From NCBI RefSeq assembly GCF_007830175.1, contig NZ_VLKH01000005.1:124001-188000 (forward strand): a DNA stretch of 64,000 bases, written 5' to 3'. The translations under genes and the position numbers were made by a program. This stretch comes from Sedimentibacter saalensis (GTDB lineage Bacteria; Bacillota; Clostridia; Tissierellales; Sedimentibacteraceae). Every line of letters begins with the position of its first letter. Positions within the stretch are counted from its first letter, which is position 1. This document shows, piece after piece, positions 33,927 to 57,338 of this stretch. Below the pieces are notes generated by a model. That model saw nothing but the letters and a program-made list of their open reading frames with translations, did no database searches and was not told the origin of the DNA.

Positions 33927-34898
33927 ATGGTTATAGTTAGTGCAGCAGCGGTAACTGGCGGAATAGGTGTTGTATGCGGTGTCTTGTTGGCAGTTGCAGC
34001 AAAGCTATTTGCAGTTGAAGTTGATCAAAAAGTAATAGAAGTAAGAAATGCATTACCTGGAGCAAACTGCGGCGGATGTGGATTTGCAGGATGTGATGCA
34101 TTGGCAAATGCCATTGCAGCCGGAAAAGCTCCTGTTAACGGATGTCCTGTTGCAAACAAGCAGGCTCATGAAAAAATTGCTTCCATCATGGGAGTAACTG
34201 CAGATGAATCAGAAAAGAAAGTTGCACATGTAATGTGCCAGGGCTGCGATACAGTAGCAAAACAAAAATATGAGTATAACGGAGTTCCTGACTGCAAGGC
34301 AGCAGCAGCAGTTATGGGCGGAAACAAATCATGCGACAAAGGCTGTCTGGGATTTGGAAACTGTAAAGTAGTATGTGCTTTTGATGCTATTGAAATAGTT
34401 GACGGGCTGGCAGTAATAGATAAAGATAAATGTACTTCTTGCGGAAAATGTATTGAAGAATGTCCAAAGGCTGTTATTGAATTTGTACCTTACAAAAACA
34501 ATGTAATAGTTGGATGTCACAACAAGGATTTCGGTAAAGCAGTAAAGGATGTTTGCTCAGTAGGCTGCATCGGATGTAAAATCTGTGAAAAAAACTGTGC
34601 ATTTGATGCAATTCACGTAACAGACAACCTGGCAAAAGTTGATTATGATAAGTGTACACACTGCATGGTTTGCGTTGAAAAGTGCCCTACAAAGGCAATT
34701 CAAGGAGATTTGCTTTCCAGAAAGAAAGCTAATATAATTGAAGAAGGCTGTATAGGATGTACAATATGCGCAAAGAATTGTCCTGTAAGTGCAATCGAAG
34801 GCGAACTGAAAAAGACACACAAGGTTGACCCGGAAAAGTGCATTGGCTGCGGTGTATGTGCTACAAAATGTCCTAAGAAAACAATTGAAATGAAATAG
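33927..34898 (+). CDS. rnfB: Rnf complex subunit RnfB (ferredoxin-facing)
   Basis: RnfB takes electrons from reduced ferredoxin. This 323-residue protein has an N-terminal TM helix (VVCGVLLAVAAKLF) and the GANCGGCGFAGC Fe-S domain. Five further four-cysteine motifs follow, including CTSCGKCIEECP, CIGCKICEKNC, CTHCMVCVEKCP, CIGCTICAKNCP and CIGCGVCATKCP, so six clusters are likely, as in Acetobacterium RnfB. It is last in the operon and is followed by a strong terminator and then a structured repeat element. Confidence 0.97.
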   Translation: MVIVSAAAVTGGIGVVCGVLLAVAAKLFAVEVDQKVIEVRNALPGANCGGCGFAGCDALANAIAAGKAPVNGCPVANKQAHEKIASIMGVTADESEKKVAHVMCQGCDTVAKQKYEYNGVPDCKAAAAVMGGNKSCDKGCLGFGNCKVVCAFDAIEIVDGLAVIDKDKCTSCGKCIEECPKAVIEFVPYKNNVIVGCHNKDFGKAVKDVCSVGCIGCKICEKNCAFDAIHVTDNLAKVDYDKCTHCMVCVEKCPTKAIQGDLLSRKKANIIEEGCIGCTICAKNCPVSAIEGELKKTHKVDPEKCIGCGVCATKCPKKTIEMK

Positions 34899-34900
34899 TA

Positions 34901-34933
34901 AAAAAACTGTGTCTTAATGGACACAGTTTTTTT
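34901..34933 (+). terminator. Terminator of the rnf operon
   Basis: AAAAAACTGTGTC and GACACAGTTTTTTT form a stem of about 13 bp with a TTAATG loop. Its T run is also the left arm start of the repeat element at 34928-35093. Confidence 0.92.
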
Positions 34934-35093
34934 ATAGAATAGGAAAGTATTTTCCTATTCTATAAAAAACGAGGATTGCAAAGGGCGGGACGCCCTTGCC
35001 GTCAAGGGGGGTGCGGAGTCTAAAACGCGTATGCGTTTTAACGCCGAAGGGGGACATAGGTCCCCATAGCGGGAGTTGCGTAGCAACTCTTTT
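34928..35093 (+). repeat. Structured intergenic repeat, copy A
   Basis: A GC-rich, multi-hairpin element in an AT-rich genome. It opens with a perfect 19-bp palindrome (34928-34946 with 34951-34969), then a conserved block with hairpin AAGGGCGGGACGCCCTT, a variable hairpin TAAAACGC/GCGTTTTA, the hairpin GGGGACATAGGTCCCC, and finally AGTTGCGTAGCAACT with T residues, like a terminator. Related copies lie at 50911-51062 and 57172-57338. No convincing gene is inside, and no target duplication was recognised. Confidence 0.85.
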
Positions 35094-50894: not shown

Positions 50895-50917
50895 ATGGGG
50901 GAAACCCCATTTTTTTA
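50895..50917 (+). terminator. Terminator of spoIVA
   Basis: ATGGGG and CCCCAT pair right after the stop codon, followed by seven T residues. The T run merges into the left arm of the repeat element. Confidence 0.85.
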
Positions 50918-51062
50918 TATACTTTAGTATATAAAACGGGGATTGCAAAGGGCGGGACGCCCTTGCCGTCAAGGGGGGTGTTCAGCAAAAAATACGTTAG
51001 TATTTTTTGCGCGGTCGGGGGACATAGGTCCCCCTAGCGGAGTTGCGGAGCAACTTTTTTTT
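50911..51062 (+). repeat. Structured intergenic repeat, copy B
   Basis: The left palindrome is shortened (TTTTATATACT/AGTATATAAAA, 50913-50936). Then come the same conserved blocks as in copies A and C: AAGGGCGGGACGCCCTT, a variable hairpin AAAAAATAC/GTATTTTTT, GGGGGACATAGGTCCCCC, and AGTTGCGGAGCAACT with a T run. The element lies between spoIVA and an HlyD-like gene and has the same orientation as the others. Confidence 0.85.
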
Positions 51063-57140: not shown

Positions 57141-57178
57141 AACTGCCAAGGAAAATATAAATCCTTGGCAGTTTTTTA
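57141..57178 (+). terminator. Intrinsic terminator after the 56.8-kb gene
   Basis: AACTGCCAAGG (57141-57151) and CCTTGGCAGTT (57163-57173), followed by six T residues that form the left arm of repeat copy C. Confidence 0.9.
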
Positions 57179-57338
57179 TATACTAGGAAAGTTCTCTTTC
57201 CTAGTATATAAAAAACGGGGATTGCAAAGGGCGGGACGCCCTTGCCGTCAAGGGGGGTGCTCAGCCAAAATACGTTAGTATTTTTGGCGCCGAAGGGGGA
57301 CATAGGTCCCCCTAGCGGAGTTGCGGAGCAACTTTTTT
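57172..57338 (+). repeat. Structured intergenic repeat, copy C
   Basis: This copy has the longest left palindrome, a perfect 20 bp (57172-57191 with 57196-57215). Downstream are AAGGGCGGGACGCCCTT, the variable hairpin CCAAAATAC/GTATTTTTGG, GGGGGACATAGGTCCCCC, and AGTTGCGGAGCAACT with a T run. Its last T residues touch the stop codon of rqcH on the minus strand. Compared with copy B, the extra AGGAAAG/CTTTCCT segment lies only in the tip of the first palindrome. Confidence 0.85.

Follow-up and report, generated by a model that had tools for sequence, protein, structure and literature searches.

The window, by which we mean the whole stretch of 64,000 nucleotides analysed (positions 124001-188000 of contig 5 of a Sedimentibacter genome), contains three copies of a GC-rich, folded intergenic unit. 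What is this unit, and how did it come to stand three times behind the end of a gene? We propose, with a probability of roughly 0.85, that it is a non-autonomous, structure-dependent mobile element which targets transcription terminators; its length is ~167 nt, or ~240 nt in genera with a long 5' domain.

Copies in the window and anatomy of the unit

The three copies that the sequence-only reading had placed at 34928, 50911 and 57172 were all verified on the + strand. As described there, each lies directly behind a hairpin and T-run which follow a + strand ORF (stops at 34898, 50894 and 57133), and each ends in a stem and T-run of its own. The high GC content noted on that occasion is broadly right: it is ~0.50 over copy 1 (averaged over 150 bases) against 0.25-0.33 just downstream, and 0.53-0.56 in the 127-nt core.

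Read from the 5' side, the terminator hairpin of the host gene and a run of 5-7 T's are followed by a closing hairpin, hairpin H1, a conserved single-stranded stretch (GGGGTGCTCAG), the variable hairpin H2, CCG...CGG pairs around hairpin H3, hairpin H4 and T's. The outer 5' arm of the closing hairpin begins within the target T-run; its 3' arm ends in A4-A7 and sits ~40 nt inside the element, and the inner part is a conserved GGAAAG/CTTTCC. H4 and the T's behind it form the terminator-like 3' end. The parts lie in the window as follows:

34907..34926, + strand: hairpin of the intrinsic terminator behind the upstream gene, target of copy 1 (CTGTGTC-TTAATG-GACACAG, then T7)
34927..34969, + strand: target T-tract and 5' closing hairpin of copy 1 (TTTTTTTATAGAATAGGAAAG...TTTTCCTATTCTATAAAAAA), the 3' arm being the A-rich arm
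34970..35093, + strand: core of copy 1, structure from covariation
34978-34999, 35021-35040 and 35050-35065, + strand: H1, H2 and H3 of copy 1
35044-35046 with 35070-35072, + strand: CCG/CGG closing pairs of copy 1
35073-35089, + strand: H4 of copy 1, terminator-like, with T-run 35090-35093
50896..50909, + strand: terminator hairpin, target of copy 2 (TGGGGGAAACCCCA and T7)
50910..51062, + strand: copy 2, with a shortened 5' hairpin (50910-50937, most of the hairpin lost)
50945-50966, 50985-51010, 51017-51034 and 51041-51055, + strand: H1, H2, H3 and H4 of copy 2
57143..57171, + strand: terminator hairpin, target of copy 3 (CTGCCAAGG...CCTTGGCAG and T6)
57172..57338, + strand: copy 3, complete, with 5' hairpin 57172-57215 and T-run to 57338
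57224-57245, 57264-57288, 57295-57312 and 57319-57333, + strand: H1, H2, H3 and H4 of copy 3

The 5' hairpin takes ~40 nt in the Sedimentibacter type and ~100 nt in other genera. A closing hairpin with a long loop, found in Anaeromonas, Thermohalobacter, the genome G035 and part of Anaerosolibacter, extends the 5' domain to ~80-110 nt, and near-complete copies fall into two classes in this respect, short (28-46 nt) or long (81-112 nt).

Several copies are built differently. Four from Clostridiales GWB2_37_7 (L278, L281, L293, L295) carry ~90 extra bases (CCTGTCGTGAAATGGG...GATACGATG) in place of the 5' part of H1; similar across several copies of that genome, they represent either a subtype of their own or the result of a nested insertion. 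In a Sinanaerobacter copy (L280) a further hairpin set is nested within H3. In an Anaerosolibacter MAG (L202), a group II intron reaches with its 3' end (GAGCCGTATGAGG...CACGTACGG...ACTCTAC, recognized by eye) right up to the 5' hairpin of the element, which gives the impression of an intron insertion into the element. Apart from the element, the window holds a selenocysteine tRNA at 1662-1755 (RF01852, 63 bits).

Selection for the folded structure

The sequence-only reading had observed, on three copies, that the two arms of the variable hairpin change together. This holds on a much broader basis: among 103 distinct core sequences from many genera, both partners vary in 34 of 35 pairs. Pairing cells amount to 95.1% in this set as opposed to 72.3% in shuffles. 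The covariation score of 0.483, which none of 500 shuffles reached, compares with 0.155 after shuffling and with 0.06-0.09 when the register is slid; fitting the alignment to the structure introduces a bias in favour of the latter, but the margin is very large nonetheless. Covariation, missed at first outside H2, is present also in the first hairpin and, once distant relatives are included, in H1, H3 and H4. Together with the site statistics given below, it strongly supports a structured family under selection for pairing, placed behind terminators in one orientation.

Among cells that are not Watson-Crick pairs, G.T outnumbers A.C by 101 to 42, which would favour an RNA form of the + strand. 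We consider this moderate evidence, because H1 supplies much of the excess, and in H2 taken alone the two kinds are balanced (11 versus 13).

A known family with a wider extent

No named family had seemed to fit the unit, which proved wrong: Rfam RF02937 "Clostridiales-2", an sRNA entry with no function given, covers its core. The gathering threshold of that model (58.6 bits) is reached by copy 3 (64.9 bits over 57210-57300) and by distant relatives from several genera (60-83 bits); copy 1 gives the same alignment below the threshold (46.9 bits over 34964-35054). The core sequence and the structure of H1 and H2 are the same in both, but the model comprises the middle 82 positions, without the 5' hairpin, H3 and H4, and the Rfam output is silent on mobility and terminator target. 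In the literature that we found, mobility, target rule, duplication and full extent of RF02937 are apparently undescribed, the sequence family itself being known. An unexplained Rfam family hereby gains concrete biology, namely mobility and a sharp target rule, and its extent grows from 82 to ~167-240 nt.

Both the genome-wide count and the covariance model suggested earlier were carried out. The own Sedimentibacter genome (3.83 Mb; assembly with 6.5% contamination, most of the genomes compared being drafts) harbors 32 near-complete copies besides several fragments. The copies stand in unrelated flanking sequence, can be aligned over their whole length and differ from each other by 0-20%. A search of 249 genomes of the order with the core model (R1) detected relatives in 18, belonging to 7 genera. 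When named genomes were scanned with a pattern, matches came from Sedimentibacter, Geosporobacter, Anaerosolibacter, Anaeromonas, Thermohalobacter, Sinanaerobacter, Lutispora, Family XIII and others. The element was also seen in two contigs (L206, L241) labelled Calditrichales bacterium MX18-03, a non-Firmicute label; either horizontal transfer or a mislabelled genome would account for this.

Intrinsic terminators as targets

To our knowledge, few elements target transcription terminators. Here, the 45 nt preceding the T-run have an MFE below -6 kcal/mol at 54 of 61 sites, and the stem abuts the T-run in nearly all of them. Both hairpin tests are passed by 88% of sites, compared with 23% of the remaining T5 runs of that DNA. 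In a second, independent set from several genera, parsed automatically, a strong abutting hairpin precedes 66 of 100 sites versus 17% of other T5 runs, the former being a lower bound because some rows are mis-parsed. Some copies in both sets have no recognizable hairpin directly before them. Element and upstream gene share the strand in 114 of 130 cases.

Copies also follow leader terminators of T-box (L035, L053), SAM (L068), TPP (L136/L245) and cobalamin (L075) type, and tRNA terminators (L179 and L181, read by eye). The target is therefore the terminator and not the gene end.

Some of these leaders belong to important genes, on whose expression terminator-like insertions are predicted to have effects. 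At L035 a T-box, the element and 38 nt precede an ORF read by eye as tryptophanyl-tRNA synthetase (trpS); at L053 the element stands between a T-box and a threonine dehydratase-like ORF (ilvA), and at L229 it leads into a seryl-tRNA synthetase-like ORF (serS), both named by eye. With the degenerate L061, these sites are cases in which a terminator-ended element separates a T-box or attenuator-like leader from aminoacyl-tRNA synthetase genes or amino-acid genes. Expression past the element might there depend on a leaky H4, on antitermination or on removal of the element from the RNA.

Does the internal arm choose the target?

The A-rich 3' arm of the closing hairpin could pair with the target T-tract in the manner of the EBS-IBS pairing of group II introns, and the element would then be guide-directed. 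Nine sites have targets which depart from T..AT on both flanks, and in seven of them (L002, L022, L043, L015, L212, L234, L304) unusual bases of the arm face complementary unusual bases of the target, whereas L029 and L064 are clear mismatches. Either the arm selects fitting targets or pairing is restored by compensatory change after insertion; the latter would produce the same complementarity without any guiding. Pairing stops at the T-run: its extension into the terminator stem, striking in L270, L210 and L246 taken singly, was rejected, as pairing beyond the T-run is not significant over 123 sites. Moreover, the GWB2_37_7/Lutispora type has GGGGGA in place of the A's and would be able to pair by G.T only. 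Because of these last two observations we regard guiding as possible but, on balance, doubtful. A contribution of arm and T-tract pairing to target choice may nevertheless form part of the mobile-element model.

Mobility and target duplication

Two relatives with ~92% (G003) and ~90% (G022) nucleotide identity to the own genome allow comparison of orthologous sites. The site of copy 1 is empty in G022, that of copy 2 in G003, and that of copy 3 in both; further sites empty in relatives are L021, L007 and L004, and the copy L006 is common to all three genomes. Distribution within the genus is patchy, with the element in 11 of 25 genomes, own included. The complete genome G014 has identical copies at at least five sites, and copies on a complete Geosporobacter chromosome have a median identity of 97.5%.

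The clearest pair is L022. The empty site in G003 reads GGGGCCG TTTTTAA CTTAAATT; the filled one reads GGGGCCG TTTTTAA, then the element (TATACTAGG ... GCAAC), then TTTTTAA CTTAAATT. The target-site duplication in this one empty/filled pair is thus 7 bp, TTTTTAA, where the duplicated T's are indistinguishable from the element's own 3' T's and proof of duplication comes solely from the nucleotides beyond the T-run. At 101 sites, the nucleotides that follow the two T-runs, left and right, agree above permuted pairs (p < 2e-4 in each group): 2.34 versus 1.78 +/- 0.10 in the Sedimentibacter type, 2.65 versus 1.64 +/- 0.18 in other types. At L029 and L064, the odd base of the target is found on both flanks and is absent from the internal arm, which supports real duplication.

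Against its structured family, the sequence-only reading would have counted a parent insertion sequence together with identical copies flanked by target-site duplications. Near-identical copies and a duplication are indeed there, but a parent insertion sequence was not found. The unit is thus a mobile element and structurally constrained at the same time. The Clostridiales-2 unit moves, it enters one kind of target in one orientation, and it duplicates that target.

We suggest the following course of events. A folded form of the element, RNA or single-stranded DNA, is maintained by selection, probably because the mobilising enzyme recognises the fold; the latter would thus be the recognition signal. 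This separate enzyme would act in trans. The element goes into the T-tract directly 3' of an intrinsic terminator hairpin, in the orientation of the terminator, and a duplicated T-tract of T5-6 and ~2 nt, 7-8 bp in total, is left behind. As the last hairpin and T's mimic a terminator, downstream genes would largely be spared, and tandem insertion would be possible.

Which enzyme moves the element?

An autonomous parent copy was sought first of all among the copies themselves. No form with an ORF occurs among the roughly 180 copies inspected; every near-complete 5' domain belongs to the short or the long class, with no ORF-sized insert, and a parent insertion sequence was rejected. Compared with DDE-type MITEs, the element shares target-site duplication but not terminal inverted repeats (6 of 28 positions agree). 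A duplication that is not accompanied by inverted repeats agrees neither with typical MITEs derived from IS nor with Y1 elements. In lifestyle, the element resembles pneumococcal BOX, RUP and SPRITE, which are non-coding, shorter than ~200 bp, strongly folded and probably moved in trans, and which can make composite leaders with T boxes (PMC3049150). BOX and RUP, however, carry terminal inverted repeats, and all three differ from the element in unrelated sequence and in lacking its target rule.

A retroelement similar to SINEs would be another solution. The 3' U-run of a terminator-ended RNA would anneal to a nicked A-run and be extended by a reverse transcriptase supplied in trans (target-primed reverse transcription). 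The terminator-like 3' end, the T-tract target and its duplication, the fixed orientation and the lack of inverted repeats would all follow from this single step. Group IIC (class C) introns, whose insertion sites are intrinsic terminator motifs used in a single orientation (PMC4424553), offer a precedent for insertion behind terminators, and several hosts do carry reverse transcriptases. In contrast to these introns, the element encodes no maturase, has about one tenth of their size and shows target duplication. In cmscan, copies gave no match to Intron_gpII or D1D4, while real introns in these genomes do match.

Several hosts, on the other hand, are without reverse transcriptase or maturase. 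Searches with RVT_1 (PF00078) and group II RT (TIGR04416) gave no match in the own genome, G022, G219, G035, G187 and G191, and no reverse transcriptase was matched in the complete Geosporobacter chromosome with its near-identical copies. These missing enzymes count against target-primed reverse transcription despite its fit. Truncation of 5' ends was rejected as its sign, as copies are truncated at both ends alike and some truncations are explained by T-run microhomology. A group II intron as helper was rejected too, given the hosts without reverse transcriptase and the introns examined, which are not located behind terminators. We therefore consider the SINE-like mechanism rather improbable. 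The broader notion that bacteria possess a system specialised on intrinsic terminators, SINE-like or guide-directed, in which a ~170-nt folded, terminator-ended RNA with a pairing arm would be served by an undescribed class of enzyme, seems unlikely to us as well. Terminator targeting with duplication, in several hosts without reverse transcriptase, makes the enzyme of the proposed mobile element searchable now.

Transposition of folded single-stranded DNA by an enzyme of the HUH/Y1 kind, as in REP/RAYT or IS200/605-derived elements, would agree with hairpins near both ends, strand-specific insertion and lack of inverted repeats, and Y1 proteins occur in most of these genomes. Like REPs and BIMEs, the element is intergenic, lies 3' of genes and forms hairpins; it differs in being a longer unit with many hairpins, in duplicating its T-tract and in not being found at RAYT-like genes. 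The link to a Y1-type REP enzyme, which the sequence-only reading had proposed to look for, found no support: Y1 proteins are widespread, their presence does not follow the element, no copy lies near the Y1 genes at 15 loci, and the three loci inspected for shared ends have none. A Y1/RAYT helper was rejected for want of linkage. We know of no HUH/Y1 system that leaves a target duplication, and such a duplication is seen here. This mechanism is accordingly very improbable in our opinion.

We give equally little credence to an ordinary sRNA or 3'-UTR regulatory RNA, repeated through its usefulness and mobile only secondarily. The sRNA label of RF02937 in Rfam speaks for it, and the paired changes with their G.T excess would suggest RNA; against it stand the patchy occurrence in one genus, empty orthologous sites, target duplication and lack of a common gene context. 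Viral carriage was dismissed, as the exact pattern has no match in viral contigs.

Another family of palindromic repeats, dispersed within this genus, was noticed in the own genome (contig 1, L086:17519-17658 and L086:5194-5345; GTCATTCTGAG...GAAGAATCTC / GAAGGATCTCATCTT), with relatives in G003 and G022. These repeats may be the REP-type counterpart of the RAYT-like Y1 genes.
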